Below are positions 3,075 through 53,473 of a stretch of 64,000 nucleotides of DNA, piece after piece (within the stretch, counting starts at the first letter, position 1; the number at the start of each line of letters is the position of its first letter). Under the pieces are notes generated by a model. It saw nothing but the letters and a program-made list of their open reading frames with translations. It searched no databases and had not been told where the DNA came from. Made by a program: the position numbers and the translations under genes. Origin of the DNA: Ulota crispa. Lineage: Eukaryota > Streptophyta > Bryopsida > Orthotrichales > Orthotrichaceae. Location of the stretch: contig OY987249.1 in the NCBI GenBank assembly GCA_963920765.1, positions 5,562,188 through 5,626,187 of the forward strand, given 5' to 3'.

Positions 3075-3900
3075 AGATTTGACACTATTAATATTTGTTG
3101 AACCTAGGCCAGGTACATTGGAAAGTGTGTGAAGTGTCTCTACCTTGTACGACTTTCCTATTGTACATCACAAAAAACTATGAATAGAAAATGGTAATCT
3201 AGTCCTTGTATGAAGGACCTTATCCAAATGCACAATCTAAGATAATACAAAAAGCATTGCATTGAACACCATATTAGGTGAATTGGGAAAACAGGGGGTC
3301 CCAATTTGTACATCACCTAAATCCAGAGAAGTCACCTTAAACCAGATTCAAAGGTGTCAGATTTAGTTTGAGCCACTAAGATTTTTTCCCTTGCAAATTC
3401 CTCCTCCAAGGTGACGACGTGTGTATTGGAAAAAAAGGCTAAGCTTGATTTTAGGTGATCACCTAAAACCTTCAAAAGTCTCAAAAAATACTCTTTTTCC
3501 CAATTTACCTAATATGATGTTATTGATAAAACATGTATATGAACTCACTAGTCACTATCCAAGTACTTCACTCATGTATACAAATAAAGCAAAATAGAAT
3601 TTATGGTTTTATTGTACCCACATCTTTGTTCAATTGGGATGCATTACAATATAACTTTCATGATTGCATTGAACTCAAAGAGTGGACAAAAATAGGGAAT
3701 TAGTGATCTGTTTGTAATAATAAGTACATGTCTTGGGATCCTTTTTGAGACTATTTATAAAGGGGCCACTTGGAGGGTTCAAAATTTTGCTAATGAATGT
3801 GCGGTTGTGCACCATATGATATAAGACTTTTTCATGCTCTAAATATTTTTAATATCATACTTATGATATTGCATTAAATGGATAAGCGAAGTGTAGTTAT
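3075..3900. repeat. repeat family K copy 1, interrupted by a 4-bp-TSD MITE
   Basis: About 3205-3790 matches 27460-27788 at moderate identity, ending in a GGAGGGTTCAAAA motif that forms an inverted terminus in the second copy. The second copy lacks the insertion at 3265-3521 and so shows the pre-insertion sequence. The left boundary is not resolved. Confidence 0.55.
3265..3521. mobile_element. MITE family M copy 1, TSD ATTG
   Basis: The terminal inverted repeats are AACACCATATTAGGTGAATT and the complement of AACATCATATTAGGTAAATT. The 4-bp target duplication ATTG is at 3261-3264 and 3522-3525. The related repeat at about 27520 carries the site uninterrupted with one copy of the target. The interior (257 bp total) has long stretches in common with the copies at 5722, 14141 and 53073. 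Confidence 0.85.
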
Positions 3901-4064
3901 TGTAGTATGAGAGTTGTAAATAATGCCACACCATATACAATGTGTCCACAACTCAACATGTATATTGGTGTTATGTGCATCCCCTGATGCAGCTTTTTTA
4001 CCTTTTAGCTATCAATGTCCTATGGTACTTTAGGTATCATTAAACCCATATATTTTATCGTTAA

Positions 4065-4974
4065 CCCCTAAAATTCTTTTGTGTTTAGAGGCCCAAAATT
4101 GTTTCAAAATACTAGTCTCTCAACTAGGGTCAAAATCTTCATTGAAATTTATTTTCTAATAAATCCAACCGTAGGATCTTTTGGTGGACTTGCCCAAGTA
4201 CATTGTCCCAAAATTTTAGAATGAATATCCCCACCAATTGCAAGATCAATGTGCCTAAACTTCAAAATGTAGGTCTTTCTAGTTCTTACAAAAGGTGAAG
4301 TTTTGATTTTCAAATTTTTTAGAAAAAAACAAGTATGTTGTATTCCTTGTGCAATTTTGGCAATATGTTGGAAAATAGATTGAAAGCATGTATAAAAAAT
4401 TTGAACCAAAAAAAAAATTTGGATTCATTTTTACAAAAATTGTAAAGTGAAAGGTATTGATGAATGAAAGATATAGCCAATATGCTAATAAGTTTTGGAA
4501 GAATTTGAAAATTGTTAATCTCAATGGTGAGAATGCTCTAATAGACAATTAGTAATTTTATTTTTCATTTTCATTTGAAAATTTTCAAAATTGAGAGTAA
4601 AATATAACTTTGTATGTTTTTTTTACCCTCTTCCTACCTTCATTGCCCGCAAAAGAAAAGTCCTTGTAACTCTTACCTCATTATTAGGAATTGAGTGATT
4701 TAATTTTTTTTGAGTAGGTATCAATCTATACAATTCTATAATAAAATTTAAAAGAAATTAGAAAATATTTTTTGCTGCCCGATTTGACATTGAAATTGAA
4801 AAAACCTTTTAACTTTCGCATTACTTATTGCAATGACATGAAATAAAGCTTCACATGTAGATTATGATGAGTAGCATCCATCCTAAAAGTTTCATGAAAA
4901 AATTCCAAATTATGAAGTCAATAGAGCCTGCTCAAGTTTTCATAAAGCCCAAAGGGTTCCTTGGGCTTTAGGGG
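4065..4974. mobile_element. TTAA element family C
   Basis: Flanked by TTAA at 4061-4064 and 4975-4978. The ends are CCCCTAAAATTC and ...GGGCTTTAGGGG (inverted). Size is 910 bp, AT-rich, without coding capacity. The interior resembles the E family loosely (GCCTGCC/TTGCTGCCC-type motifs). Confidence 0.75.
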
Positions 4975-5196
4975 TTAATTAATACATCATAAATTAACGA
5001 ACTTCCAAAAGTTATTTGTCTCAAGCATTGTCTTATGAAAAAAACGTTGCACACGTCACACCCCTCCCCATTTATGGATTTTCACTAGTGGTGTAAATCA
5101 CAGATTCACATGTGCAACAAACTAAAATCCCAACTTCAAAATCCACCAACAAGTTTTTCGCAGTTGAAGAATTTTCAAAGTAGTGGAGATGCCATT

Positions 5197-5297
5197 ACAC
5201 AGGAAAACTTTTCTCGGTTCCCGGGGTTGGAAACACTGGGAAACACCGGACTCACCGGGAATTCTCTCACCTGGAACCGAGAAAAGTTTTCCTGTGT
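5197..5297. mobile_element. short palindromic MITE
   Basis: The inverted repeats are perfect over about 26 bp (ACACAGGAAAACTTTTCTCG... and its complement). The short loop carries GGAAACACTGGGAAACACCGG-like direct repeats. No second copy was seen in the window. The frames on both strands are by-products of the palindrome. Confidence 0.6.
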
Positions 5298-5721
5298 TAT
5301 GTGACCAAACAAATGGCTGGTACAGATCATTGAAGGCAAAATAGATGAAATTGGCAAATTTTCAAATATTGAAATGAGATGCACAAGTCATTCTTCCTTT
5401 AAAAACGTGGGCGCTTCTCGGTTGCTTTTAAATCTCAGAACTTTACCCAAAAGAAAGGAAAAATGCCAACTCGACGAATATATTGATTGTGATTCCTATT
5501 AGACGACTGACGAGCACCTAATGAAGAGCACTTCAAGTGCCAATCTGCCATGTCAGCAAATACAACTATACGCTCTACTGCAGTGGTTGACCACAGACTT
5601 AGAGTGCTTCAAGAGGGAAAGCACTAAAATCTGACCTTAGCTGGAAATTCTGCAACGTTGCATTGCTGCAATAATTTTGAAAATTTCCCACAATTCGAGC
5701 AGAACCATAAGTGAAGTTGTT

Positions 5722-6646
5722 AACGCGTTATTCATTAAAATGGGAAAACGATGGGTACCATTTTGTACCTCACCTTAATCCAATAAAGCCACCTTAAACC
5801 AGATTTGAAGGTATCAAATTCAATCTGAGTCACTAAGTTTTTTTCCCTCTCAAATTTCTCCTCTCAAGTGAGGACACGTGTACCAAAAAAACGCTAAAGC
5901 TCGGGTTAAGGTGACCACCTTAATCCTTCAAAATTCCCAAAATGTACTCTTTTTCCCAATTTAACCCCTCAAGGCCCATGCACTTTCCCGAGTGTCTCAG
6001 AATCTACATGGATGAGCAAAATGTCAACATTCTGATAAATTGCATGAAATTTTTTAAAATTGTAACCGTACAAATTCAAACTAGATATGTTAGAGATCAC
6101 ATAGGAAAAGAAAACACAAAAATATCACTTATGGATTGAAAGATTATAATATTTGATCAAGAGGGTGTTAAAATTGTGAAAGTGATTTGAAGTCTTTCAA
6201 TCCTCTTTTCAAATCTCAAATTTAAAATTGAGGATACCAAAATTATGAGTATGTAAAGTACAATATATGTAACCCTAATCAATTTACAACTTCTTAATAT
6301 CTACTTTACAACTTCTTAATATCTACTTTACAACTTTTTAAATTAAGTTTCTAATGTGATTGTTTCTCCAAGTTCTAGTGTACTTTAGGCTCATTTTCAA
6401 GATCTCTCAACACTAGAAAGTGAAGATTTGCAATGGACACCCTTGCACAAAATCTTGAATAGAAAAATCATAATTAGTCATTTTCAAAATCAGACTTTTG
6501 ATACTAAAACAAGACTCCAACAAAAACTTTAAAATAATAATAATCATTGTAGTTAATCATGAAAAAAATTTAGGCATCCCAAATTACAAACAAGGAGGGA
6601 CAGTTTTGGTCCCCTTGGGCCTTGAGTTGTTAACGAATAACACGGT
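5722..6646. mobile_element. MITE family M copy 2, interrupted by a TTAA element; TSD TGTT
   Basis: The left end is AACGCGTTATTCATTAAAAT. The right terminal repeat is broken at its TTAA by the element at 5965-6629 and resumes at 6630 as TTAACGAATAACACGGT. The 4-bp target duplication TGTT is intact at 5718-5721 and 6647-6650. This fixes the order: the M element came first, the TTAA element second. Confidence 0.85.
5965..6629. mobile_element. TTAA element family D/H copy 1, nested
   Basis: It starts CCCCTCAAGGCCCATGC after TTAA (5961-5964) and ends GGGCCTTGAGTTG before TTAA (6630-6633). Its interior matches the copies at 33212 and 44480. Inside, 6289-6345 holds two and a half copies of a tandem unit of about 23 bp (TTTACAACTTCTTAATATC...). 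Confidence 0.85.
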
Positions 6647-6888
6647 TGTTAGTTTGTTACAAGGGACCCGCGGTTGCAAAAATGCAGGAATCCCTTCGCA
6701 AGCACTTTCACAGGCCTGGAAATATAACTTACTAGAGTGTACTGCAGAAACAACATTTATGCTGGAAAAGTACATGCACTGAACTTGGGTAATATAACAT
6801 AGTGCTGTATTGTACTAATTGATATAACTCTACATGTAGAGAAGCCAAGTTAAGATAACATGGTTAAAAAATTATGGATGGATCTCAA

Positions 6889-7980
6889 GTGGAAGTTCAA
6901 GGAGATCATTAGTTTATGTTTTACGAACCACTTGAGTTAAAAGATAGGGTCCACTTTATTCAAAGGACAATTTTTTTTAATAATATGTAGAGTTTCTATA
7001 GGGTCCATGAAATACTATATACTTTAGTATATATAAATTAGGGTATGTAACAACATTAGGTAGCAGGATTTTTTATTAATAAATTAGCCTTGACAAATAG
7101 GGATTGTAAAAAAAAATTGTGTTGTTTATTGCTCTCCATGATAAATTATTTTAAATACATGCCATAGAATTGAGAAATACTAAAAACTTGTTACTAAAAA
7201 CTTTCCACTTAGATAATAGTCCTTTAATTCATATGCTTGTTATTGGTTTCATGGTGAATACAATGTGTGTATATGTAATAGAAAGAAAGATGTTTTCTTT
7301 GATGAATAATGGAGACATGATAAGATTGGACAAACAAAATTTATATTTAAAATAACCCCGTTTAAAAACCAAATGAGTGAATTTATAAAAAACATGGGGT
7401 ACTAGAAATATGACTTCTGTAGCTTTTTTTTGATAAAAATATGGTTGTTTTAAATACCATATTTTAGATAAATAGCCCTACATCAAATACCCTCTTAACT
7501 CACATGTGTACCATAAAATTACAAGGAGTATTCTCCCCGAGGGTGGAAGCACCCATAGCTGATAACTGAAACCATTCAATGTGCAGCAAACTACAAAGAG
7601 TTTTAGGCAACAAATATTTTTTTCATGTAGGAAGAAAAGAAATATTGGGATTGCAAATTGTTCATAATTTTATTTGTAAAACTGAAATTACTTGTGAATT
7701 TTGGGAGTCAAAAAATGTTCTAAAGCCATGGCCAATGTTTAGACTTATGCAATTTGGATAATAACCAAACTACTTTCAACCCAGTACTTCCTACTTCACT
7801 TTGGGACATGAGACATGACTTAAGTGGTCTCATCCTTGAAAAGGACATAAGAACACATTCCAAAGTACTTATCAAAAAAGACATAAGAACGCATTTCAAA
7901 GCACCTATTCATGATGATGTTGGAAATAGCACACCCTACCAATTGGGTATGAGGAGTTGGTGTCTATGGGCGCTTCTACC
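6889..7980. mobile_element. MITE family AA copy 2, interrupted by a hAT-like element
   Basis: The right end is CTATGGGCGCTTCTACC. The left terminal repeat (GTGGAAG then GCACCCATAGC) is split by the element at 6896-7541, whose target duplication lies inside this terminal repeat. Without that insert it is about 440 bp. Frames inside are not genes. Confidence 0.55.
6896..7541 (-). mobile_element. hAT-like MITE family P copy 1, 8-bp TSD
   Basis: The ends are TTCAAGGAGATCATT and the complement of CTCGGGGAG. The 8-bp duplication is AGTGGAAG (6888-6895) and GGTGGAAG (7542-7549), 7 of 8 identical. It is an inverted copy of the element at 14447-15088. The duplication length is that of hAT; no transposase is encoded. 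Confidence 0.75.
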
Positions 7981-8154
7981 TTACTGACACACATCTCGTT
8001 TTGTTTTGTAATGCTTTTCTATAGGATTCCTACGTATTCCACGGTGACTCTACCAATTCAAAAATGAATTGCTCGGCAGTGTCAACAATAACAGTATGTT
8101 GAAAAGCTCTCCTTGAATAATTGATGTAGAACCAGGGGCACCATAAATGTAAAC

Positions 8155-8320
8155 TATATTATCCAAAGTATCTGGATATGAAGTAAATTGGGAAGAAATG
8201 CAATTTTGGGACTTTTGAATTTTATGTTCTTTAAAGTGCATTAAGTAAATCTTCTTCAAAAAATACAAAACCCAAAAGTCCCAAAATTGCATTTCTTCCC
8301 AATTTACTTAATATGGTGTT
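8155..8320. mobile_element. MITE family M, short palindromic variant
   Basis: It ends CCCAATTTACTTAATATGGTGTT. The left end is diverged (GGATATGAAGTAAATTGGG). The interior is a hairpin around TTTTGGGACTTTTGAATTTT. The left boundary is approximate. Confidence 0.6.
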
Positions 8321-8560
8321 AACTGTTCAGTGGAATATTTATCGATTGCATGCAAGTAAATTATTAAACTGGAAGCACACATTGTCTTACCTGCAGTCCA
8401 GTTCTGTGGTACAGAAGGAATCAGAATATTATATATGGTAAAGCTAAGCAGAGGAAAGTTCAATTCATCTACATGCAAGACAAATCATGCATGTACCCGT
8501 ACGTGGTTTCTGTATACCATATATCGCCAGAGATGTTAATTTAGTATTCTTTTTTCTTAA

Positions 8561-9475
8561 ACCTTAGAGGACCAAGCAAAGTTTTCACCAAAAACTCTTC
8601 AAAGCTGCCATTTTTAGAGCATCAACCAAATTTGAAAACAAAAACATTTTTATACATATGTGACCGTCAGATCTTGTAGAAGAATAGTTTTAGAAGATGT
8701 GGAAAAAAAATTAGAGTTTTTCACCACATGGATTGGAAGCTAGAATGGTTTGAATATTCAAAAATGTCTTGTGAAAAACTAGGCAGCTACCCTTCAAAAG
8801 GTGAAATTCCTAAGGAAAAAAGGCTATGTGGGTGGTGCTTCTCTAAATTCCTTATTCCACCTAAGTAAAGTACATGTCCAAAAAGTTTCAAATCATTTGG
8901 AGTTGTATAACATATGGAAAAAAATTAGTAAGTAAAAAGAAGTAGAGAATGATTTAAAACACCAATTTGTTAATAATTTAATTATGGATATGAAAAATGC
9001 CAATCCCAATGGTCATAATGTTGTCATAAACAATTCTCATCCTTTGGTTTTGTTTTTTTTTCCAAAATGTTGAAAATTGAGTAAAATAAAGGACTTTAAA
9101 GTTTATTTTGGAGTAGAGAATCCATAATTGCCTGCAAACAAAAAATCCTCATAACTTTCATCTTGTTGATCCAAACAGAACGATTCAAAGCTTCCTACAT
9201 TCACATAAATCTCCTAAACCCATCTAAAATTTTTGTTTTCAAAAAAAGTAAAATTTAAAAATCTGCCCAGGCTGCCCAACAAACGTAAGAAACAACATAT
9301 TAGGCCATAGCTTTTTACTCATAATTTCAAATGTCATGAAATTTAGTGCATATGAAAGATAAACCTTGTCCCCACATTCTATTAAAATTTCAACCTAAAA
9401 CATGAAATGCTCCAATCATAGGTACCTGCCCAAAATTGCTATGTTTCTAAAAAAGGGGGTCTGGTCCTTTTGGGG
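8561..9475. mobile_element. TTAA element family E copy 1
   Basis: Flanked by TTAA at 8557-8560 and 9476-9479. The ends are ACCTTAGAGGACCA and TGGTCCTTTTGGGG. Size is 915 bp. A diverged second copy runs from 26626 to about 27970. No coding capacity. Confidence 0.75.
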
Positions 9476-10243
9476 TTAAAACTGTACCTACAGCTGTGAC
9501 AATCTCTAAATTTGCAGATAGGCGTTTTTGTTTGTAACTCTCATATCTTCTTTGATGACTTTGTGTCAGTCCACTTCAAAAGTGATTCTTATGCAGAGAT
9601 AATTGTCGTAGTTTCAGACAGTTGAATGACAACCCTGGACTACTTTCCTCCTTCCTATTCAACATGTATTGTGGAGAGTGTTGAGCGTTGCAAACTACAG
9701 TTTTGCATAATATTACTCTAAAAGAAATTGAATCTTTTGAGTTCACGTAGTATTAAGAAAGTCATCTCAACCAAAACTACTCTCAGTCTCTCACTGATAA
9801 ATTGCTTTGTTACTTGTTAGTGATATGTAGTATGATTGGTTATACTTGTTCACAAGGTATGTTTTGAAATATCAAAATTGTGACATGAAAATGCAGATTA
9901 GAACTCTACAAACTGTAAGTAAGAACCAGAAACATGTTACATATGAGGTCCTAGATAGGTAATTGAATAAGTGCCAGCTTCGTGAGATTTGCCAATTAAA
10001 CGAGCATTTGTGACAATCTATTACAACGTGAATTGTTGGATCCTAATACTCTCCAAATATATGCCAGTGAGGGTCACACACTAGATTTCTCTTAGTTTCC
10101 TGTAGTTGCTAGCAATATGAACCCTGAAGTTACTCAGAGTTAAATGATTTCAACAAAGTCTCAATTAATATTTTATCTGATTTTGATGAGTTATCATTGT
10201 TTGAAGAAATCAGAAGTGAACGATAAGTTTGTATATAAGTTAG
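9476..10243. other. single-copy stretch, no gene assigned
   Basis: No repeat seen. An open frame of about 40 codons near 9500-9630 follows TTTGCAG and ends ...IIVVVSDS-stop. It has no neighbour in phase and is not called as an exon. Confidence 0.3.
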
Positions 10244-10393
10244 AACAGGCTATTCATTAAATTGGGAAAAAGTGACATTTTGGGACTTTTTGATTTTGTG
10301 CTTTTTTAAGAGTGTTCATTGAACACTCTTTAAAAAATATAAAATCCAAAAGTCCCAAAATGTCACTATTTCCCAATTTAATGAATAATGCGT
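10244..10393. mobile_element. MITE family M, palindromic variant, TSD TTAG
   Basis: The left end is AACAGGCTATTCATTAAATT; the right is its diverged complement ending AATGCGT. The duplication TTAG is at 10240-10243 and 10394-10397. The interior is a hairpin around TTTTGGGACTTTTTGATTTT with a GAGTGTTCATTGAACACTC centre. Confidence 0.8.
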
Positions 10394-10888
10394 TTAGTAC
10401 TACTGTAAACAGATCGTGATAGAAGTAGCATGTTTCTAAAGCCAAAGTTCAGACTTAGAAAGTCAATACTGTTCACAAGCTTAGCTATTAAGTAGTGTCA
10501 CATGCGGAATTAAGTGAGGGATGATCTTTAGTTTTAGTTTAGTACTCACATGAACACGAAGCCATGAAGGTCATAATATTTGCATTCTCATGTATGTTAG
10601 AATTTATCTTTCCATTCTGGTCCCTCAAGAATTTGCAGTATTTTGTTGATCCTCAACTGACATATATGGCATGAATCTTTTTCAAAACTAATTACCGTAC
10701 CTTCCCAGTTTCGGCACAAATTAATTATTTAAATATTTGCCTAATTTTTTTGGAAATTATACAAATTTATTGCCTAAAATTTGTGAAATAAAAATAGAAT
10801 AATGCCTTAAAAAACAAACACAGAAAAGTCCAAGTAGGATAAAAAACCATTGTGTTCCATATTAAGAACTTGGTATGCAAAAACTTAG

Positions 10889-11008
10889 AACACCATATTC
10901 ATTAAATTGGGAAAACGAGATTCCCAAGTTGTAATGTAATGGTCGGTTTAAGTTGGTCAACTTAATCCCACAATGTCACAAAATTCCCAATCGAATGAAT
11001 ATGGTGTT
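10889..11008. mobile_element. MITE family M, 120-bp variant, TSD TTAG
   Basis: The ends are AACACCATATTCATTAAATT and its complement, the right inner part being slightly diverged. The duplication TTAG is at 10885-10888 and 11009-11012. Confidence 0.85.
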
Positions 11009-11410
11009 TTAGTGTTTTCAATTGTACTATAAATACATTTTTTGTAACAAATGCCCAAAAGTTGGCTAATTTTGTGACAGCAATGTTTTAGTATTATAAA
11101 AGGACATGCTTGTCATATCAAGTATTTTATTGCAAATAAATGATGATCATACCGGTATCAATCAAATCAAATATTTTGGCTCAGTTACTAAGTCTAACTA
11201 GAGTAATGCCTAAATGTTACAGAATTTTACCTCATAAGTGACTAAAATTTGTATATTATTTTTTCAACTGCCTAAGCTTATTTTTGAATTTTAAATAATT
11301 ATTAGGCATTGAAGTGCCGAACTTGCTAAGAATGTATGGTAGTAGTCTAGTACCCTAAAATCATAGAAGAGATGTGTGTCTCTTTTCCTATTATCACAAA
11401 GGGAACTTAA

Positions 11411-11571: not shown

Positions 11572-11581
11572 TTCTGTAAAT

Positions 11582-12603
11582 AACCCAATATTCGTTAATT
11601 TGGAAAAAATAGGTGTCCCACTTTGTATTCCACCTAAAACCCAAAAATTTACTTTAAACTAGATTCAAAGGTATCATATTCAACCTGAGCCAGTAAGATT
11701 TTTTCCCTCGCAAATTCCTCCTCTCAGGTGAGGACACATGTAGGTTTTAGGAGGCCACCTAAAACCTTCATATCAAATTTTGAAAGTCCAAAAATGTACA
11801 ATTTTTCCCAAATTAACCCCTAAATCCCTGAGTGTCCCCTCCAGGTACAAATGAGATTTCGAGCAGGTACCTATGACTAAACTACTTAGTGTGATTTTTT
11901 GAAACTTTTATGGAAGATGGGGAACTCAAAGATCCATGTGCACATCTAATTTTTTTTCATTCTGACATTATTTGATGAAGTAAAAAATGAATTTCTGAAT
12001 TTTTTTTGGAGATGGGGCAATCTGGGCAGCCAAAATTTTTTTTTTTGTAATTTACATTTTCTTGAAATAAAAATCTGAAATTGGTTCTTTGAGTTTATAT
12101 ATACGTGGGAAGCTTTGAATCACTCGTTTCTAGCAAATGAAATGAAAGTTATGAGGACTTTTAGTTACCTAGTACATATGGAGCCATATCTACAAGGTAA
12201 CTAAAAGTCCTCATAACTTTCATTTCATTTGCTAGAAACGAGTGATTCAAAGCTTCCCACGTATATATAAACTCAAAGAACCAATTTCAGATTTTTGTTT
12301 CAAAAAAATGTAAATTTAAAAAAAGTTTTTGGGCTGCCCGAACTGCCCCGTCTCCAAATAAATTCAGAAATTCATTTTTTACTTCTTCAATCTCCAAATA
12401 AATTCAAAAATTCATTTTTTACTTCTCCAAAAACTGTTAGAATGAAAAAAAAATTAGATGTGCACACGGATCTTTGAATTCCCTATCTTCCATAAATGTT
12501 TCAAAAAATCACACAAAGTAGTTTAGTCATAGGTACTTGCCTGAAATCTCATTTGTCCCCCAAGGGGACAATCAAGGATTTAGGGGTTAACAAATATCGA
12601 GTT
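11582..12603. mobile_element. MITE family M copy 3, interrupted by a fold-back TTAA element; TSD AAAT
   Basis: The left end is AACCCAATATTCGTTAATTT. The right terminal repeat is split at its TTAA by the element at 11817-12586 and resumes as TTAACAAATATCGAGTT. The 4-bp target AAAT (11578-11581) reappears at the right junction, itself split by the next TTAA element (12606-13530). The duplicated locus near 23580 has the unfilled site with AAAG. Confidence 0.8.
11817..12586. mobile_element. 770-bp fold-back TTAA element (family F)
   Basis: Flanked by TTAA at 11813-11816 and 12587-12590. It is a nearly complete palindrome: arms run from both ends to a loop of about 24 nt at 12171-12194. The 88 nt on each side of the loop are perfectly complementary, and the next 20 differ at one base. 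Transcription of either strand would give a long hairpin RNA. The short open frames inside are by-products. A related, non-palindromic element starts at 24842. Confidence 0.85.
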
Positions 12604-12605
12604 AA

Positions 12606-13530
12606 CCCCTCCCTAATTGTCCCCTCAGGGGACAAATGGGATTTTGGGCAGGTACCTACAACCTCAATTTTTTTCTAGATTTTTTGAAACCTTTTTTGAA
12701 GATAGTAAAACACATTAGCTTTTGGGGAATCTAATTTTTATTCCAATCACTGCCCAAAAGCAAAAGTTATGCCTAGATAAGCACAAAATTATGCAAATTG
12801 GGCAGCAAAAAAAATTTACAAAAACTTGATTTTTTTTTATTTTTTATAGTTTATTTATTTTGTCATAGGTTATATTTTTGTCTACATTTGAAGCTTTGAT
12901 TAAATTCATGTGGACTAGTTATGAGAAAGTTATGGACAATCTTGTTTTTTGGGCACCTCAAGCATCTTCTTGAAAAAATTACTTATAAACTTCATTTCTA
13001 AATGCAAGTTTAACATTTTTTCAAAAAAAATTGTTGGAGAGGGTGAAATTTGCTTGCTAGAACAACCTCACCATTGGGATTATTGAGTTTCAATTCCATT
13101 GCAAGGTTATTAGCAATTTAAGTTTTGGTTCAATCTCATACCTTCTTCTACCTAATGTTTTTTTGAAGAATGAAAATTAAGTTTTTTTTGTTTTGATTTT
13201 TTTCCAAAGATTCTCAACTCAATTTCCCACCATACAAAAATAAACCTCAAAACTATGTGGTGCAAAAATTTGAAGTTAAAAAAGTTCAAAGTCAAATAGT
13301 CTAGTCAATCAAGGTGCAAAAAAGTCAATTTTTTACACTTTGAATGCAAATATCTTGCAATTTGTGCGCACAAAGTTTTTGAATTTTTGTTCCACATTCG
13401 TATACTAGTTTAGTACAAGATCCTAGGGTTAAATATGCAAAAAGACCAATTTTCAAAAAAATTACTCTTTGCAATAGAAATGACAATTTTAAGTGTTTTT
13501 TGACAGAATAAAGGCCCAGGGATTTAGGGG
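12606..13530 (+). mobile_element. TTAA element family G copy 1
   Basis: Flanked by TTAA at 12602-12605 and 13531-13534. The ends are CCCCTCCCTAATTGTCCCC and ...CAGGGATTTAGGGG. The 925-bp sequence is closely matched at 33818-34735 (same orientation) and 22127-23046 (inverted). No transposase. Confidence 0.85.
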
Positions 13531-13536
13531 TTAAAT

Positions 13537-14140: not shown

Positions 14141-14387
14141 ATCACCATATTCATTAAATTGGGAAAAAGAGGTATCCCCCTTTGTTTTCCCCTCAAACCC
14201 AAAAAGTTACTTCAAATCAGATTCAAAGGTATCAAATTTAGTCAAAGTCAATAAGATTTTTTCTCTTGCAAATTCTTCATCTCAGGTGAGGGCACGTGTA
14301 CTAAAAAAACGCTACACGCTCAGTTTGAGATGATTACCTCAAAGTCCCAAAATATACTCTTTTTCCCAATTTAATGAATATGGTGTT
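14141..14387. mobile_element. MITE family M copy 4, TSD CTAT
   Basis: The ends are ATCACCATATTCATTAAATT and the complement of AACACCATATTCATTAAATT. CTAT is duplicated at 14137-14140 and 14388-14391. The interior matches the copies at 3265 and 5722. Confidence 0.85.
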
Positions 14388-15944: not shown

Positions 15945-16681
15945 AATGCCATATTCGTCAATTTGGGAAAACAATGGGTACTATTTTGTACCTCACCTCA
16001 ATCCAAAATAGCCACCTTAATTTAATTAAGGAGGTCACCTTAATTCTAGTTAATGAATTTTTGTACAAAATTTCAGAAGTTAATGAACTTCTTGTTCAAA
16101 AAGAGCATATTTTTGAAAGGCATACATCTCATTTCATTGGAAAATAGTCAACGGACTCCCAATTCAATGAATATGACATTCTCTGGATTAAAAAAAAGCT
16201 AGAAATCATTAAAGGAAAAATGAGCTCAAGAGAAGGTCATTATGGGAAGTGGTTGGAGGGGTTAAAAGCATTTAAATGTAATGTCCTTTTTCAAATAAAA
16301 AGAGACTAATCCCTATACTCACTTACAAGTACTTCATGAGAATAATTTCTTTTTACAATATCATATGCTTTTTGTTTGATGAGTGTCCTTGTTTGATTGG
16401 GAATTTTAGTCCTAGTTTATTCTTGTGTTCCTCTAAAGGTCCTTGCATTTGTCATTGTCATGTTATAATATTGTTTTCCATCATCAATCCTTTTGTTATG
16501 TACCATGATACACTTGAGTAGTTCACACAAGGTAGAGACACTTGTGTAGGTACTTTACCTATGCTTCTTTTACCTACATAAATAGGGTGGTTTGTCAAGG
16601 TTGGGAGGCCTTCTATTGAGCTCATTTTTCCTCTAGTGCCCACTTTGTACATTTTTTCCCAAAATTAACAAATATGGCATT
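15945..16681. mobile_element. MITE family M composite, TSD CCAT
   Basis: The outer ends are AATGCCATATTCGTCAATTT and AAATTAACAAATATGGCATT. CCAT is duplicated at 15941-15944 and 16682-16685. Inside lie a further M-type right end (to 16183) and an N element (16214-16631), so this is a nested stack. Confidence 0.7.
16214..16631. mobile_element. MITE family N copy 1
   Basis: The inverted ends are GGAAAAATGAGCTCAAGAGA and its diverged complement. About 418 bp. Related copies are at 17171-17599 (inverted) and 17934-18357. The 60-codon frames on both strands are chance. Confidence 0.65.
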
Positions 16682-17603: not shown

Positions 17604-17926
17604 AACACCATATTTGTTATAATGAGAGTTTTCTAGTGAATTGAGAGGTAAATTACCCATAATTCAAAAAAAAAGGTCAATTTGACGAAAGGTTTTAGGA
17701 ATTTAGCTTGATTTGAGCTGAATTGACATAAAACCTTTCATATTTGACATAATACTGAATAGTTTTAGGTGCTTGAATCAAGTTGAATTGACACAAAACC
17801 TTTCAAATTTGACCTAATATTGAAAGAGTTTATGTCAATTTAGCACAATTCGAGCTGTTTTTGGTCAAAATCTAACATGTTTAATTTGAGAACTCCCCAT
17901 TCTCTCATTATAACAAATATGGTGTT
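17604..17926. mobile_element. MITE family M variant between two N elements
   Basis: The terminal inverted repeats are AACACCATATTTGTTATAAT and its exact complement, about 25 bp perfect. A TCTA repeat flanks it with a one-base offset. The interior holds diverged copies of 'gaattgacataaaacctttca'. Confidence 0.7.
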
Positions 17927-26625: not shown

Positions 26626-27970
26626 CTCCTCAAGGACCAAGCTAAGTTTTCACCAAAACCAATCCAAAACCACCACATCTAATACAAGCACCAAATTTTA
26701 AATTTTTTTTGACACATGTAATTGTAAGATCTTGTAGTACACTAGTTCCAAAAGATACAAATAAAATCTCAGAATTCCCACATGTCAATTTTAAGATATA
26801 TGAGTTTGAATTAACAAAAAGGCATTTTATGTCCTTGCAAAAACCTAGGCAGCTGTACTTCACAAGGTCAAATTTGTATGAATGTTTTTCCAAAATAGTT
26901 GTAACTCTTTGGAATCAAACTTCAAGGCAAATTGGATATATGTTTGAAATTTTTTAAATCATTTGGAAATGTACAACTCATAGAAAAACAATGGTTAGCA
27001 AAAAGAAGTACAAAATGATTATTGGTGAGAATTTAATGATGGAAGTAAAAGATGCCAAGCTCAACAGTTGTAATGTTGTGATAAAAAATCTACATTCTTG
27101 GGGGGGTTTTTTTTCAAAAAATTGAAAATTGAATAAAACAAAGGACTTCAAAGTTTGTTTTTGAGTAGAGAATTCATAATAGCTTGCATATAAAAACTAA
27201 TCATAACTTTCATCTCATTGATCAAAAATAGAATGATTCAAAAGTTTCCACATATACGTAAATCTCCTAACCAAATTTTCAATTTTTGTTTATGAAAAAG
27301 TGATTTTTTCTAATATGCCTGAATTGCCTGCTCAAGGAAAAAAGCAATTATTAGAGACATTTTGAGCCCTCCATGAACCCTCCAGTATTTGACAAAGCAC
27401 AGTATTATTTGGAGGCTAGGCATGTTAGTGTGAGTACACAAAAAATCACCCATATCTACTTATATCTTGTATGAAGGACCTTAACCACATGCACAATCTA
27501 AAATGATACAAAAGGTATTGCACTCATAAAATATGTAAATAAACTCACTAGTCATAATCCAAGTACTTCACTCATCTATACAAATAGAGTAAAATAGAAC
27601 TTATGGTTCTACTATACCCACATTTTTGTCCAATTGGGATGGCATAAGGATTTAACTTTCATGATTACATTAAATTCAAAAGGTGGAAAAAAAATAGGAG
27701 ATTGTAGATTTGTTTGTTGCAATAAGTACATATTTTTAAATCATTTTTGAAACTTTGGAGGAGCTCTAGGAGGGCTCAATTTTTTTTAGTGATATTAACC
27801 CATAGAATTTTATTTATAATTCCAAACATCATGAAATTTAGTCCATATGAAAGATTTTCCTCATTTCTACCTTCTTTTAGAATTTCAGCCTAAAATGTGA
27901 AATTCTCCAATCATAGAGACTTGCCCAAATTGCCATGTTGCCAAAAAATACAGCTTAGTCATTTATGAGA
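26626..27970. mobile_element. TTAA element family E copy 2, interrupted and decayed
   Basis: It starts CTCCTCAAGGACCAAGC after TTAA. The interior parallels 8561-9475. The right end is degenerate, without an intact TTAA. Interrupted at 27359-27788 by the K element. Confidence 0.65.
27359..27788. mobile_element. element family K copy 2, nested
   Basis: The inverted ends are TTTTGAGCCCTCCATGAACC and the complement of AATTGAGCCCTCCTAGAGC. It matches 3205-3790 without the M insertion found there. A possible target duplication contains ATTA, but its length is unclear. Confidence 0.6.
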
Positions 27971-31231: not shown

Positions 31232-33211
31232 GCATGTGGAGTTGTTTCCATTTCAAACGGACATGCATAAGCTGCATAAAAAAACTATGCTTCTTATCTT
31301 GCTCCGGCTTAAAAGCTTTTGTAAATTCTAAAGCCAATACTTGGTGTTAACGGCCATATTTTTGTAGTTTGCATCAGTAATTGTACAATGTTTTTGGAAA
31401 TACTTAATTTTAACTCATTTCAATAATTCTATAGTAATAAGATACAATACCAGAGGATTTAAGAAATATGTAGTTAAATCCAATTTTGAAAAAAAAAATC
31501 AATAATACCACCAACATTGTTATAGAATTTCTCTATTTGCTCCATTATGCAAACAAAATGATATAAAGTTCATGAATACCGTGTAACATCTATAATATTT
31601 TTGCAGACACTATATGAACATATTCTCTACTAGGCAATGATTTTTATCAAAGGTTTTTGCCTACTCCGTTTAAAGCATTGGTTTTTTTTATATCAAAGAC
31701 ATCCATTATGCAAGGGGCAATGCAAACTAAAATATTTTAAGCTATATTTTAGTTTAAAATATCAAATCTAGAATTGGCGCTACAAAAAATTTTGGTTCAA
31801 ATAGCTGTTCTTCCAATATATCACCATTTTTTTGATACTCACATTAGCGAACCATTAAAAAAGACCACAACCGTTTTTGAATTTCTTAGTTAATAGGCTA
31901 GCACCTTCTTTTTTTAATGCAATGGCAATTCTGATGGGTGTAACGTAATGGAATTTGCTTAAATCCTCACCATTTAAAGTTTTTTGCAAGCATTACATGA
32001 GTTGAATTTCATCTTCTCTATTTGTTTTTCAATTCCAAAGATGGTAAATGTAACAATTCATTGAATCATATACTATAAGAAAAACATGGTTGAATCTACA
32101 AAAAGTTAACAAAAATTATGACCTAATCTACAGTATATTGTAAATTAGGTCACAATTTTTGTCAACTTTTTGTAACTTCAACCATGATTTTCTTGTAGAT
32201 ATATAAATGCCTCCTTCCTATCTTTTTTTTAATAAAATAAAATTTCTAATTTTTTTGGGAAGCCCATGGTTCTTTTTCAATACGTCTTCATCATAAAAAC
32301 ATTTAGAATAAGGTCCAAAAAGACACACAAGGTAATGCGCATGCCTCGGTGCACAAATATCATATAAATTTTTTATTGCTCTTTCAACATTTTAAATTTG
32401 TTTTTGTGCTCTTTATACCAAATTTCCTCAAACTCGTTTACGGTTTGGTTCCACTTCTCTAAACTTTAACATCTGATTGTACAAATCAGCTAACAAGAGC
32501 TTTTTGTTTTTCTCTTCGAACATATTATACTTTCCAAGTACGCATATTATTATGAAGAGAAAGTCTCTACTCTCTCACCAAGGGAACGCATGCGCATTTG
32601 AATCATTGAAAATGTCTTACACGTTGTTATAGTCAAGTTTAAAGTCAATTAATTCTCATACAAGAACGTTGACAAAACTCCAAAGTTTTAGAATTGTTTA
32701 TGGTATTCTTCCGCTTTTGTTTGAAGAAATTCTACTATCAACGCTTGTATTTTTCCACTCCATTGAATTCTTAAATGCTGATGAAGAAACCATATTCTTA
32801 AAGTTTCAAAACACATTTTTCCAAAAAAATACATGTGAACCGAACATCACCAATTTACATAGTGAAAAATATGAATGACAACGTAGTTTATAAAGACAAA
32901 AAGATAAAATAAATAAATAAACTTAGACTTCCAAGGATGCAAGTTTCCTAACATTGAATTGTGAAAATAGTCTAAGCATTAAAAATAAAGACTTTTGCAA
33001 AAGCTTCCTTAAGCTTCTATTGCAAAATCACCTTTTAGTTGTGAATGTACCTAAATTCACGATGTCCTAAAATAATTGGGCACAAATAATCTTATTAATA
33101 AGCTTCTAAAATATAACGAGCATCTACAAGTTTCAGAAATATTGCTTCATGTTCTATATTATGACAACCTAAATTCATTTATTACAAATTTTAGTAAGCA
33201 AATATCATTAA
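31232..33211. other. AT-rich stretch, one hairpin, no gene
   Basis: Apart from the hairpin at 32073-32198 nothing is recognised. A 69-codon plus-strand frame at 32669-32878 is of chance length for this composition. Confidence 0.3.
32073..32198. mobile_element. CACTA-like hairpin MITE, diverged ends
   Basis: Related to the hairpin at 30992 (shared GACCTAATCTAC and GTCAACTTTTTGTA blocks). The ends are ACTATAAGAAAA and TTTTCTTGTAG. Boundaries are within a few bases. Confidence 0.65.
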
Positions 33212-34771
33212 CCCCTAAATGCCCAAGCCCTATCTAGGCTTCTTGGACTTTCCATGAAAGTGAACAAATCAACCTTTTCCCTAAATCCATCAAGTTTTTT
33301 TCAATTGTAACCATACAAATTTAAACTAAACATGTTAGAGATTACATGGAAAAAGAAAACATATCAATATCACTTGTAGTTTGAAAGATTATAATGTTTG
33401 AACATGAGGGTGTTAAAAGTGCAAAAGTGACTTAAAGCTTTCTAATCCTCATTCACATGTCAAATATGAAAAGTTGGTCACTAAAAAAATATGAGGTTTA
33501 AGGTCATTACATGTCTAACTCTAATCTATTTACAATTTTTAAAATCTACTCTTACATTTTTTTTAAAGGGATTTCTAATGTGGTTTTTTCTCTAAGCTCT
33601 AGTTTATTTAAGGCTCATTTTCAAGATCTTCTAACACTAGAAAACTCAAGATTGTAGTGGACACCCTTGTACAAAATCTTGAGTAGAAAAATCATCAACC
33701 TTCATTTTCAAAATCAGTTTTTTGATGTTGAAAGTACACTTCAAAACAAACATATATTGAAAGAAACACTAAAAATAATGATTTGATAAGGTTTTATTCA
33801 TCTTCAAAGTTTTGTAACCCCTAAATCCTTGAGTGTCCCCTTGGGGGACAAATGGGATTTCAGGCAGGTACCTACGGCCTCAATTTTTGTCTTGATTTTT
33901 TGAAACTTTTTTTGTAGATAGAAAAACACATTAGCTTTTGGGGAATCTAATTTTTATTCCAATCTATGAGCAAAAGCAAAAGTTATGCCTAGATAAGCAA
34001 AAATTTATGGGGATCAGGCAAAAATTTTGTTCTTACAATTTCTTTATTTTTTATTTTTTCTTCTCATAGGTTATAGATTTTCCTACATCTGAAGCTTTGA
34101 TTCATTCCATTTGGACTAGTTATGAGAAAGTTATGGACAATCTTGTTTTTTGGGCACCTCAAGCATCTTCTTGAAAAAATTACTTATAAACTTCATTTTT
34201 GAATACAATTTTAACATCTTTTCAAAAAAGATTGTTGGAAATGGTGAGGTTTGCTTGCTAGAACAATCTCACCATTGGGATTATTGAGTTTCAATTCCAT
34301 TGCAAGGTTATTAGCAATTTAAGTTTTGGTTCAATCTCATACCTTCTTCTACCTAATGTTTTTTTGAAGAATGAAAATTAAGTTTTTTTTGTTTTGATTT
34401 TTTTCCAAAGATTCTCAACTCAATTTCCCACCATACAAAAATAAACCTCAAAACTATGTGGTGCAAAAATTTGAAGTTAAAAAAGTTCAAAGTCAAATAG
34501 TCTAGTCAATCAAGGTGCAAAAAAGTCAGTTTTTTACACTTTGAATGGAAATATCTTGCAATCTGTGTGGACAAAGTTTTTGAATTTTTGTTTCCACATT
34601 CTTATACTAGTCTAGTACAAGATTCTATGATTAGATATGCAAAAAGATCACTTTTCAAACTTCTTTACTCTTTGCAATAAAAATGGCAGTTTTGAGTGTT
34701 TTTTGACAAAATGAAAGCCCTAGAGATTTAGGGGGTAAAGACCCAAATCTAGTTGCTTGGGCATTTAGGGG
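33212..34771. mobile_element. TTAA element family D/H copy 2, with nested G element
   Basis: Flanked by TTAA at 33208-33211 and 34772-34775. The ends are CCCCTAAATGCCCAAGC and GCTTGGGCATTTAGGGG. The interior matches 5965-6629 and 44480 onward. Interrupted near its right end by 33818-34735. Confidence 0.8.
33818..34735 (+). mobile_element. TTAA-type element family G copy 3, at a GTAA site
   Basis: It starts CCCCTAAATCCTTGAGTG and ends GAGATTTAGGGG. Both flanks read GTAA (33814-33817 and 34736-34739), so the 4-bp duplication is intact but the target is not TTAA. It sits inside the H element. Confidence 0.85.
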
Positions 34772-44328: not shown

Positions 44329-44479
44329 TTAAGTGAGTACATCTCTTTCTATTCAAAGTACTGTATACGGGACATAAACATTTAGCCTAATCATAAGTTC
44401 AAATATCCTGTCTTATTCCGCAGGCCTGTGCTGTTCTTCTATGACAAAATCATTCTTGTTGGAATATTTAACCCCTTAA

Positions 44480-45852: not shown

Positions 45853-45856
45853 TTAA

Positions 45857-47385: not shown

Positions 47386-47540
47386 CACTAGTAGAAAATT
47401 GCAATAGAATTTATGTTTTCATGTAATGTAGTTTTTGTTGAGTTCCTTATTTCCAAAACAGAATCTGTGTTGGAAACTAGGAACTCAACAAAAACTACGT
47501 TACATGAAAACATAGATTCTGATGCGGTTTTCTACTAGTG
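47386..47540. mobile_element. CACTA-like hairpin MITE
   Basis: The ends are CACTAGTAGAAAA and TTTTCTACTAGTG. The arms of about 65 bp around GTTGAGTTCC are mostly complementary. No clear 3-bp duplication (TGA against ATC). Confidence 0.75.
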
Positions 47541-47600
47541 ATCAAGGCCAAAAAATTTGAATTTGTTTTTGAGGCTAATAGAAAACAAGATCTAATATAA

Positions 47601-47985
47601 GGTAGTAGCACCCATAAGCGTCAAACTAAGGATTTTGGAGTAGAAAAATCAATTGATGAACTTTGACATAATATTGTCAAGGTAGGAAGAGGAAACCAAA
47701 AATGTGAGCATCAATATCAAAGTTCCAATTGCAAGCATTTGTTCACAAAGATTTCTCAAAGTCCAAAATCACTAAAATTGTATGGTTTATGTGTAAAAGA
47801 TGCTAAAAACAATGTTTATTGGTTTTTAAATAGTGAGATAAGACACTCAAAATGATCATGTTAGTCACCCAAAACCACCACTTTATCACCCACAACCATC
47901 ACTTTGTCACTCATAACCATTTTTTTGTATATTTGTCAATGCCAAGTGATGCTCATGGGGACATGACATAGATGGGTGTTGCCAA
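47601..47985. mobile_element. MITE family AA copy 3, right end uncertain
   Basis: The left end GGTAGTAGCACCCATAAGCG matches the copies at 943 and 6889. A weak right end, ATGGGTGTTGCC, is at about 47972. Confidence 0.4.
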
Positions 47986-48861
47986 TGAACAGAGAGAGCC
48001 AAAAAACAATAGAAAGTCAACGAAATAAAATGTGCAAAAAATCGATTAAATTCTCAATTTACCGGCTAAAAACCAATTGCATTTCTGAAAAAATTCTAAG
48101 TATATAGGAAATAGCCGGTGCATCCACTGAAAAAACTGGATGAAAATGAGAAATGTAGGCTCTATGCCGAAGGAGCTCAAAATCTCCCCGCATACTGTGT
48201 TGCTACCTTAGCCCCAACTCCAAGAATTATGCCCGCCAAGAATAAAAAGGCGTATTTATTGCCTTGTAACCATGTTCAAAATCCATCAAATTATAAACAC
48301 TTAATTTAGTACATATGTAATTTATTGGAATTTCTACGTTGCACAATGGATGTAGAATTGTAATGGCTTTACTTCATCTCCTTTTTATACTAATTCTTCC
48401 AAAAAAGTCAAGGTTTGTAGTCATAACCTCAATTTTTTTTTGAGTGTGAGCCTTTAAAGATGGGAAAAATACAAATCTTCTTACACGTTTTTCATGTGAG
48501 GGTTTGGAGCAATTCTTGAGGCTGTTTTTGAGGATGTCACATTTAAATAAAGATGGATTACCCGAAGTCCAATATGATAACCATCAATCTAGTCTAATTT
48601 GCAAAACACTAGTTGGTATTAACAAAACATTAGAAGGTGCTCCCAAATCATAAAGAGGGAAATCCAGATTAGAAAAGATGCAAAATTTTGAAAATAATAT
48701 GTGCTCAAAAGCCTAAGAAATCTTCAATATTGGAGAACACAAAATATCTATATTACCATGAATAGTTCATATTTAGTTAATGTGACATGAGGGTCATATA
48801 GGCTAAATTTTTGGATTTTGGATGTAACCACCTCAAGGTTTGATGACCTACACTCTTTTTA

Positions 48862-48866
<5 letters not shown>

Positions 48867-48896
<30 letters not shown>
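48867..48896. repeat. poly-T tract of about 30 bases
   Basis: Followed by CTTTCTTTC. It could mark the tail of a minus-strand retroposon, but none was recognised. Confidence 0.85.
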
Positions 48897-50691
48897 CTTT
48901 CTTTCTTGTAGCTTGCATGTGACAACTAAACACATGGCCACAATGGAACCATTGAAGAATGCTATAAAGTGAGCAGGGATCTATGAGTCATGAGTAGGTT
49001 TCATTTTCTGGCGATTTGGGGCAAAATAGCACCATTTTTTTTTGACTAGCACTAAGCCTATAGAAAAAAAACACACACAATTACTTGGATGAGATTGCCA
49101 AAAAAGCTTCAAACCTTTAAAAAAACTTGGATGAAATTGCCAAAGTGTGGATGAAAACCAAATTATAGACATGTAATATGTGCTAATGTGATATTCTCTA
49201 TCCAATATGTGGATGAATGTTGAAATACAGAGCACCACTATAACATTTTAAATTGCCACTTTGGCAGTTCTTTAAAATTGAAAAAAAGAAACCGTGAGGA
49301 GGAGTGAGCTTGGATTTCTTGTCAAAATATTAAATTCCACTTATAACAGTGTACATAGGGACCTATAATTATGCATCTTAAACTTCCGTCTTTTGAAAAA
49401 CTTGCTACTTTTTTAGCTTTTTCCATTGATTTTGAGTTGACTATCAATTTTTGCTCATGAAATCTTGGCTCACAGCTTATGGGTCACCATTTTACACTCA
49501 CAAAATAGCATTATCTGGAACCCATTTTTGTATTAGAAATGGCAATCATTGAACAAAGAGAGGCTTGTTAGTTTACAAAATGGGCCATGTTAATTATGTA
49601 GCAAAAAATATGCATATTGTTTTCCAAATAGGCCCCTGGGGAGGGGATTGTGGCCAAAATTTGGTCACCTTGATTTATGAGCTTGGAAATACAGTTCGTT
49701 TCCCCAACATGGCCGACAGGAGGCACCAGACGGCCCTGCTGCATCGTGCCCCTAAAGGGACTGGTATTTCGAGTTCCCAGTTCCCAATAAGCCCCCCACA
49801 ATAATGTCACAAAGTATATCCTTGGGCCACCTTATCCACTGAGCTTCTAGAATGTTCTTCTCTACCTGAAAGGCTGAAACAGCAATTTTCTAGTTTTTTC
49901 TCCAAATTTCCAAAAGTAACTTTCGTTCCTTTTAGTAGGACTACTGTAATGGCCTTGTGCACTTTGCGCTCTTTCACATGCTTTTTTTTCCTCTCTTTTT
50001 GCAACTTTTCACCCTCTCTTACCCTCCCTTTTTCTCTCCCCTCTCTTTTAGATTTCCAATGACAAACAAACACCCAATGCTTTATTGAATAAAATATTCC
50101 AGATTATTTTAGTTATATTTCTGTTACATTTGCTATACTTCAAGCTTATTATTTATCTTTCTTTTGTAGCAAATGGACTAGTTGCTTCTACAACGCACAT
50201 TGATAGCAAGAGCCGTTTGGCTAGAATTCTCGTAGTTTTTCTTACCATGATTTGCAACAGATCATTCTTGTTCTAAAATTTTCCATATACCTGGGTCATT
50301 CTTGTGTCATAACACAAGTAAAAATTTACTTGATTTTTATTCTTGTTATGTAAAAAATTTCACAAAAACTCATTAGCAAAGTTTATTTAGTATCTTTGCG
50401 GTGGCAATAGGTGACTACGAATTGTTGAAATTTTTTGCACAATGCACGTGTGAGGAAAATTTGATTAATTTAGGCGACCAGGTAATTTGGATGAATATAA
50501 GCATTTATACTGTACCTCTTAAAGAGGTATTAATATTAAAAACTTGGAGATATGTTAGAAAGTACAATCCTTCAATATAACCAAGCAATTGCTATTTAAC
50601 AAAATACTTAAGTTAGAACTCATAAATCATTTCCTAACAATTGGATTTATAACTGCACTCTCCTATTAGTATTGAAACAAATAAAGTGAAT

Positions 50692-50922
50692 AACACCATG
50701 ATGTTAGTTAAATTGGAAAAATGATACATTTTGGAACTTCTAAATTTTGTATTTTTGAGAGTTATAGTAAATTTTATGACGATTTTTTCAAGATCTTACG
50801 TCAAAGATGTAGGTTTTGGAATTATCATAAAACTCATTTTGAATTGCCAAAACACTCTCACAAGCGCAAAATTTAGAACTCCTAAAATGTGATCTTTTTC
50901 CCAATTTAACAAAAATGGAGTT
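50692..50922. mobile_element. MITE family M, diverged copy
   Basis: The ends are AACACCATGATGTTAGTTAA and the complement of AACTCCATTTTTGTTAAATT. GAAT and GATA flank it, so the duplication is not intact. Confidence 0.6.
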
Positions 50923-50967
50923 GATATGGTTTCTAAAACCAATTGTGGATTTTTGGAGTATTTAATT

Positions 50968-51790
50968 AGGATAGCTTTATATTACAAGTCTAGGCTGGTT
51001 TTCAACCCTTCGGATACTCCCAACGCTAACATCTCGTTGGTTAATTTTTTAAAAGCTAGCTCAAGGCCTTTACGCTAAGAGTCAAGGGGTCAAATTTTTA
51101 GAGCTTATTTTAGTATTTAAAAAACAAGGTTTAACACGGCCCAAACTCCAAAATTCTTGACCCAATAGTCATAATCAAATTTTATTAAAAGTTCGTTTTT
51201 TGAATATAAAATACTCTTTCGAGATAGTCACCATTGTAGAATGGAACAATGATCTCTCAACAACTTTACTTGATCTTTTTTATTTTATCCCTTTTCTCCT
51301 AAATTTGCAAGGTTTATTCTAGTGACCTCAACTTTTTGGTTTTGAAACCTTTACACATAAGAGATTGAATCCTATTAGGGCTGCTTTACACTACACATTG
51401 AGGCTAGTTTCCAACCTCTGACACGCTCTACTAGAATACCTAGTTGATTCATATTATAAAAACACCCTCAAGGTCATTTACACAAGGAGTCAAGGATAAA
51501 TTTTTAGAACATGTTTTAATATTTACAAAACAAGATTTTACATGGTCCGAACTCTAAAAATTGGGTCTCCTAAAAATGTGAAGTCAATTCTTGGCCCTAG
51601 GGCCATTTTTGGATTTTATTAAAATATGATTTTTCGAATTAAAAACATTGTTTTGAGATACCCAACATTGTAGGATGGAGTAAAAATATCAATGGTTATC
51701 CTTAGTTTCTCTTTTTATCCCTTTTTTCACGAAATTTTCAAAATTTACTCTATTGGCCTCAACTTGTTGGCCTCAAGGCCTTTACAAACA
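50968..51790. repeat. tandem duplication, unit about 407 bp
   Basis: Two diverged direct copies, recognisable by GAGTCAAGG at about 51081 and 51490 and AGGCTGGTTTTCAACC against AGGCTAGTTTCCAACC (50991 and 51399). Shorter related units follow to 52001. Confidence 0.7.
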
Positions 51791-52005
51791 AGTGAGTTAC
51801 CTCCCACTATACTTGTATTATAATGAATACTTGGGGCCGTTCTGGAGGCCATTTGGGCTGAAATTTTGCCTAAAATGACCCCAAGTTTTCATGGCCTTGA
51901 CTCCTAGTGTAAAGCAGCCCATGTACTCATATTATAGTGGGTGCTTGGAACAATTCTTGAAGCCATTTAAGCTGAAATTTTGATCAGAATGGCCCCAAGT
52001 TTTAA

Positions 52006-52870
52006 TCCCTAAAACCCAGAGGGTAAGCGTTGCTAAGAAAAATAAGACCAAAACTGCCATTTTTGATGATTTATTTGGAATGCAAAATAAAAACTTCTTT
52101 TTTGAGTTTCAACCTGACAAAAGTGTAATAAACAAGTAAGGCAATGTGTGGAAAAAAATTCAGCACATTTGATCGCGTAGATTGTAAGGTTATCATGTTT
52201 GAAGTGAGAAAAACAACTTTTTTTCATTACTGCAAAACAAGGTCAGCAAACTTCAAGCCCTCCTAAAGTAATTTTTGCTATACACAAAAGCAAGAATTTT
52301 GATCATTCACAACTCACAAGTATATGATGTTAGGTTCACTTATGAAAATTTTTAGAAGCAAATATAGAATCTAGCTTAATCTAAATCATCTTGCAATGCA
52401 AGGAGGTTAAGTGAATTGGCAATACACTAGTCATTTTTCCATGGTTTCTAGTACAATGAAGTTTTTTATTTGAAATCCAAATGGTGAAAAGTTAGAGGCA
52501 ACCATTTTGAATGTGTGAAAAAAGTTTCAATAACTTTAAATTTATAGAATGCAAGATAATAGGGCTTGAAGCTTGAATGTTTTTGAAAATTGTATACCAT
52601 ATTTTATTAGTTACATGCATGCCAAGTTTCAAAAGTTGTTGAGAGTTTTAGCATAAGATTCTCCAAAGATGCCCAATTGCCCAAGGTGCCCAAATTTTTT
52701 TGGGCAACATAAATTTTTACTCTAACATCCAATCAAAGTTTTTATTTTTTTCACGCATTCATTGTGTGCACCTTGTTTTCTAATTTCAAAAACATCCACC
52801 AAAATTTGACTTCATAGAAACCTACCCCAACTTTCAACCAACTATTGAACAAACTTTTATGGTTTAGGGG
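52006..52870. mobile_element. TTAA element family U copy 2
   Basis: Flanked by TTAA at 52002-52005 and 52871-52874. Ends TCCCTAAAACCC and GGTTTAGGGG. It interrupts a repeat unit (CCCCAAGTTTT then GACCTTGACTCC) whose uninterrupted form is seen at about 51880-51905. Confidence 0.8.
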
Positions 52871-52919
52871 TTAATGACCTTGACTCCTAATGGAAAGCAA
52901 CCCTAAGTCAAAAGCCTCA

Positions 52920-53473
52920 TAGCATCTCCACCAATGGCTCTAGCTTGCTCAAAGTGGATGAAAAGTAGCCAAGCCCTACTTAGGCCCCTCTCAAACTCTC
53001 TTATTTGGCAAGTCTAGCAAGCCAGTCTCCAAGCCACTATTCACCCTAAGTTTAGTGAGTTTTATTCTCTACAACACCATATTAGTTAAATTGCGAATAA
53101 CAATATATTTTGGGACTTTTGAAGGATTAAGATGATTACCTTAATCCGAGCTCCAACATTTTTTTTGGTACACATGCCCTCACCTGAGAGGAGGAATTTG
53201 GGAGGGAAAAAATCTTAGTGGCTTAGACTGAATCTAATACTTTTGAATCTGGTTTAAGGTAACTTTTTGGGTTTAAGGTGGAGTACAAAATGGGACCCTT
53301 GCTTTCCCCAATTTAACTAATATAGTGTTCTACTTCCCTAAATAAGTGGTCAACTACTTATTTATGGGGTATATTTGAATGTAAGGCCACCTTTTCAAAG
53401 AGCATGGGTGGAGATTGAGAACCTGAAGGCCTCGCCAAATCAGATGGAAAACTTTGGACCGGTGGAGATGCTC
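52920..53473. mobile_element. Harbinger-like MITE family BB copy 1, TSD TCA, with nested M element
   Basis: The ends are TAGCATCTCCACC and GGTGGAGATGCTC. TCA is duplicated at 52917-52919 and 53474-53476. Copy 2, with TTA, lies in the subtilase gene at 60113-60445. GRGCATCTCC ends with a 3-bp duplication fit PIF/Harbinger. Confidence 0.65.
53073..53329. mobile_element. MITE family M copy 5, TSD CTAC
   Basis: The ends are AACACCATATTAGTTAAATT and its near complement. CTAC is duplicated at 53069-53072 and 53330-53333. 257 bp, the interior inverted relative to the copy at 3265. Nested in the Harbinger-like element. Confidence 0.85.

Follow-up and report, generated by a model that had tools for sequence, protein, structure and literature searches.

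The window, the whole 64-kb stretch of Ulota crispa DNA that was analysed, was scanned with AACACCATATTNNNTAAATTGGGA, and the scan recovered the copies of the first-pass annotation (Table 1). The AACACCATATT...AATTGGG short repeats are non-autonomous cut-and-paste TIR transposons that duplicate 4 target bases. The family ends are AACACC...GGTGTT and inverted.

Table 1. Copies of the miniature family in the window
Feature	Position	Target and remarks
Type-A MITE, 257 bp	3265..3521	ATTG; empty site at window 27466-27674
Type-A MITE split by nested TTAA-target element	5722..6646	TGTT; right end from loose pattern
151-bp copy, decayed left end	8170..8320	Flanks match at 3 of 4 bases
151-bp copy	10244..10394	TTAG; right side offset by one base
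120-bp copy	10889..11008	TTAG, exact
Type-A MITE with nested TTAA-target element	11582..12603	AAAT only if a second junction insert is allowed
Type-A MITE, 247 bp	14141..14387	CTAT, exact
Copy with extra internal DNA, 737 bp	15945..16681	CCAT, exact
Type-B MITE, 323 bp	17604..17926	TCTA on both sides only after a shift of one base
Type-A MITE, 257 bp	53073..53329	CTAC, exact; empty site in L023

In the copy at 11582, the second TTAA insert seems to lie on the junction, and its far side could be either at 13426 or at 13528. For the copy at 15945, the nearest partner end (16180) gave no flank match. The farther pair 10244-11008 is probably two elements.

A second family, with ends CCCCT.../CCCTT..., was inserted at TTAA inside the MITEs. 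It was seen at about 5980-6630 and at 11800-13534 in the window, and in the sampled loci L009, L012, L014, and L029.

Abundance and Diversity of the Family

In the 275-Mb genome, the 11-mer end was present at 6,850 places (about 25 per Mb), against 245 for the reversed control, and a 28-bp end was present at 1,477 places, against 0 in the control. The MITE family is not an artefact of the window. At the loose threshold of 7 mismatches, shuffled sequence yielded 15-33 matches, and weak matches at that level were given no weight. The copies were short and numerous, with inverted ends and a target duplication and without a transposase gene, as is characteristic of MITEs. Among the 21 pairs with exact flanks, 16 were 119-337 bp in size and five were 737-1,395 bp.

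At least two interior types were present, as proposed from the window. Type A was about 247-259 bp, with ends ...TAAATTGGGAAAAA, and also occurred in forms with a reduced interior, of 120 and 150 bp. The type-B ends, ...TTATAATGAGAG, were present at 518 genome places with at most 2 mismatches, against 0 in the control. Mean pairwise identity was 72% (42-90%) among 14 copies that were 230-310 bp long and had three or four matching flank bases; two of these copies aligned to the reference only in part. The MITE family is diverse and mostly old.

Target Site Duplications and Empty Sites

Among the nearest end pairs of the window and the sampled loci, 18 of 40 had identical 4-bp flanks. When the right flanks were re-dealt, the mean was 0.8 exact pairs, with a maximum of 5 over 2,000 deals. 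All 43 scored pairs, which include three farther pairs kept only for their matching flanks, gave 21 exact matches at 4 bp and six at three of four bases; the non-matching pairs include decayed and mis-paired ends. None of the 43 pairs had matching flanks of 5 bp or more. The targets varied without a TTAA requirement, in agreement with the first-pass annotation. Of the eight duplications listed there, five (ATTG, TTAG at 10889, CTAT, CCAT, and CTAC) were exact and TTAG at 10244 was one base off, while TGTT at 5722 and AAAT at 11582 are less firmly supported, the right end of each copy being broken up by TTAA-target elements.

For each of the 21 exact copies, the two flanks were joined without the element and compared with the window and the sampled loci. 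This gave 13 spanning matches for six copies, of which eight were aligned. The alignment was gapless with one 4-bp target in five of the six copies (3265 and 53073 in the window, L004, L007, and L012). These empty sites are paralogous. At the empty site of 3265, the target differed at two of its four positions, and the evidence there is the register of the alignment; at that of 53073, one target base differed. In a second match for L012, a gap of 2 bases fell at the target; the L029 alignment was ambiguous. Pair scoring, re-dealing, and empty sites thus bore out a miniature inverted-repeat family with 4-bp duplications.

DUF7869 Genes and the Ends Beside Them

Locus L024, sampled for an unpaired end, contained a broken gene with the domain PF25273 (DUF7869; E 1.9e-30), whose frames ran towards the family end at L024:321. 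Pfam lists DUF7869 as a domain of unknown function. The genome had at least 157 matches to PF25273 (246 candidates, 150 scored) and at least 151 to the L024 protein. Most of the gene copies were old and broken; the C8 copy had an open frame of 607 codons. A CACTA-like insert with ends CACTAGTAGAAAA split the L024 gene at about 1403-4577 and was absent from the other copies. L026 contained a Transposase_21 gene at 2252-3220.

Because the ends are so common that the L024 case could be chance, 40 stretches 3' of other DUF7869 copies were sampled for family ends. An end in the expected orientation was found in 25 of the 40. In the close copies, it was present in 6 of 6, with 1-5 mismatches, at 1,417-1,433 or about 1,860 bp from the gene; in copies chosen for diversity, it was present in 2 of 9. 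A further 20 stretches gave 17 ends with 0-3 mismatches at 1,739-1,890 bp, and the best opposite-strand match in the same 20 stretches had 6-9 mismatches. The last five stretches (L068-L072, 401 bp each searched) gave none. The distant PF25273 groups were rejected as the source of the ends, as L042-L047 and these five short stretches were without them.

When the copies were sorted by identity to the L024 protein, the end was present in 24 of the 26 with 52% or more, and in 1 of 14 copies below 52% or outside the match list of that protein; this line was drawn after the result was seen. A variant end in L041, AACTCCATATT, lay at the edge of the threshold and was excluded from the count as palindromic. 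Of the two misses among the 26 copies, L061 had an exact end just beyond the sampled stretch (C11:1282341), and L048 showed only an 11-mer with one mismatch. Seven of the 17 end-bearing copies (L053-L058 and L062) shared the outer flank caagg and were no farther than about 0.5 Mb from contig ends; they probably represent a single duplicated, subtelomeric segment. Counted once, this group gives 11 of 14 instead of 17 of 20.

The 28-bp end AACACCATATTCATTAAAATGGGAGTTT had eight exact places in the genome, three of which were the copies used to choose it. Among the other five, three were located 3' of a gene copy in the right orientation, two of them at distances of 1.7 and 2.2 kb and the third at 4.9 kb; the remaining two had no listed copy near.

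The L024 end lies at 9581 in the orientation of the gene. DNA similarity to L024 stopped at 9581 in L030, at 9584 in the C8 copy, and at 9576 in L031, L032, and L033, that is, within 5 bp of the end in five of the six close copies.

In L034, similarity to L024 broke off at 9212, apart from a short piece that extended to 9581. The long alignment of L031-L033 ran only as far as a decayed inner end; the last 50-77 bp then matched again at an outer end about 440 bp further on.

Of at most 157 PF25273 matches, 31 (counted by eye) were on contig C11 (6.3 Mb, 2.3% of the assembly). C11 may represent a sex chromosome or heterochromatin.

Similarity of the Gene-Side Ends to the Window Copies

In a window-only search, the end of L059 (52% protein identity) had its best match in the left end of the copy at 5722, with 84% identity over 61 bp (E 6e-14). 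It also matched the copies at 11582, 14141, and 15945 and the right end at 53329 (76-77%), and the copy at 3265 (72%). Weaker matches to several window ends were obtained with the end of L067 (47% protein identity; best E 6e-7). For type B, the last (right) 46 bp of the copy at 17604-17926 were 85% identical to the L024 end. As L059 and L067 match type-A ends and L024 matches a type-B end, sequence similarity indicates that both types have gene-bearing relatives, type A through these two gene copies only.

Search for a Complete Element

Searches for 5' ends in the sampled DNA and by pattern yielded no gene copy flanked by two family ends, and hence no gene-bearing element with a target duplication. 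L024 and L038 shared up to 3.8 kb upstream, with no inverted end seen beyond the similarity. Part of this sequence is a dispersed repeat, also present at 33208-33817 in the window; therefore, the similarity there is no proof of a shared element. The closest copy, L037, aligned for only about 1.06 kb upstream. The long copy with a transposase, which the first-pass annotation had proposed to look for, was found in part: transposase-like gene remnants carried family ends, and the ends seen were 3' ends only.

The long copies L009, L012, L014, and L029 were rejected as autonomous elements; their ORFs were short, and most of the extra length was read as nested inserts. A scan of viral contigs with the C8 protein gave three pattern matches and no relative, and the best match in a PDB sequence search had an E of 0.54.

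Proposed Transposase and Alternative Explanations

The family moved by cut and paste; inverted ends, 4-bp duplications of varied targets, empty sites, and, in this genome, gene remnants with like 3' ends were all observed. The mechanism is ordinary, that of a cut-and-paste TIR transposon with MITE offspring. We consider it probable that DUF7869 is the transposase and that the window copies are its deletion derivatives. The PF25273 gene would encode a DDE/D-type transposase, whose candidate acidic residues were read by eye on two proteins and lie in HDKMD, MDN, and GHTHDDID. This enzyme would bind the AACACC ends and insert with a 4-bp stagger. The MITEs would be internal-deletion derivatives that keep at least one end of a gene-bearing element, and the subfamilies (types A, B, and others) would follow several transposase lineages. 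The enzyme assignment of DUF7869 is probably unreported so far; no mention of DUF7869 or PF25273 was found in the literature search.

On this assignment, an orphan MITE family gains a testable candidate enzyme, and a job is suggested for a Pfam domain of unknown function. Should the link prove true in other plants, DUF7869 could serve to classify MITEs that make 4-bp duplications and at present have no assigned class.

The elements may belong to Sola, DUF7869 being the core of the Sola transposase under a Pfam name and only the family of this species being new; we regard this as evenly balanced. Sola, compared here by its published description, is the best-fitting known superfamily, and nothing in this comparison spoke against the placement. 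According to the available parts of PMC10741241 and PMC9033089, Sola elements duplicate 4 bp, have a DDD transposase, and have been reported in Physcomitrella and Capsicum. Sola (Sola1) resembles the present elements in the 4-bp duplication, the inverted ends, a three-acidic-residue transposase (here a candidate), and its occurrence in land plants, but those parts of the two papers do not mention a high-copy MITE family with these ends. Alternatively, DUF7869 may define a plant DNA transposon superfamily of its own, distinct from Sola and all other known plant superfamilies and characterised by 4-bp duplications and ends of the AACACC type. It would have seeded hundreds to thousands of MITEs here and may be the source of some unclassified plant MITE families. 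We put this forward tentatively, as the less probable placement.

If DUF7869 were an accessory protein or a passenger host gene, another protein would move the MITEs. A second gene could sit in the 5' part of the gene-bearing copies, which was never seen whole, but the DUF7869 domain has spaced acidic motifs (by eye), and no other transposase domain was found in the three L024 pieces and five further stretches scanned, all of them incomplete; we consider this explanation improbable. That the ends beside the DUF7869 genes are chance MITE insertions, the two families being unrelated, is very improbable and nearly refuted: MITE ends are common and most gene copies are decayed, but distance and orientation were fixed in 24 of the 26 copies that form one clade, the opposite strand had no match of that quality in any of 20 stretches, and similarity to L024 stopped at the end.

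Comparison with Known Superfamilies

The first-pass annotation had assigned the family to no named plant superfamily, and by duplication length none of the five superfamilies usual among plant MITEs fits. CACTA elements have CACTA ends and a 3-bp duplication; both differ here, and CACTA was rejected. PF10551 (MULE) genes exist, with 54 matches in the genome. The piggyBac transposase domain PF13843 had at least 120 genome matches (528 candidates, 116 scored), which looks unusual for a plant.

Apart from the abundance of this domain in Ulota crispa, piggyBac shares the 4-bp duplication with the present family; it was rejected, since it is described as TTAA-specific (PMC7351741, available part) and the targets here vary. 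By the values in the available parts of PMC10741241 and PMC6593561, Tc1/mariner (TA duplication; both papers), PIF/Harbinger (3-bp TWA duplication; PMC6593561), and hAT (8-bp duplication; PMC6593561) were rejected, no pair here matching at 5 bp or more in the last case. Mutator/MULE as the source was rejected on duplication length only (7-12 bp; PMC10741241, available part). Ginger/GingerRoot, also found in plants, has duplications of 4-6 bp (PMC10741241, available part); it was rejected, since its termini are TG...CA and it has a Gypsy-like integrase, whereas the ends here are 5'-AA...TT-3' (AACACC...GGTGTT) and the scanned stretches contained no integrase domain.

Unclassified (DTx) plant MITEs are likewise short, high in copy number, and without a superfamily; the present family differs in that its ends are associated with a candidate transposase. 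Such families are common, with 40 of 232 in mulberry (PMC6593561, available part), and PMC12550479 recognises a 'special group' of MITEs. Among the matches listed in a literature search for the terminal strings, none was on plant transposons by title, and no description of this MITE family was seen among the matches listed; it may be undescribed, as the first-pass annotation suggested.

Palindromic elements with ends AACyCCATATT were found between subtilase-exon-like stretches at 60913-61031 in the window, in L005, and in L041. A similar end was present beside the DUF7869 gene of L041 (46% identity); therefore, these elements may be a related subfamily.
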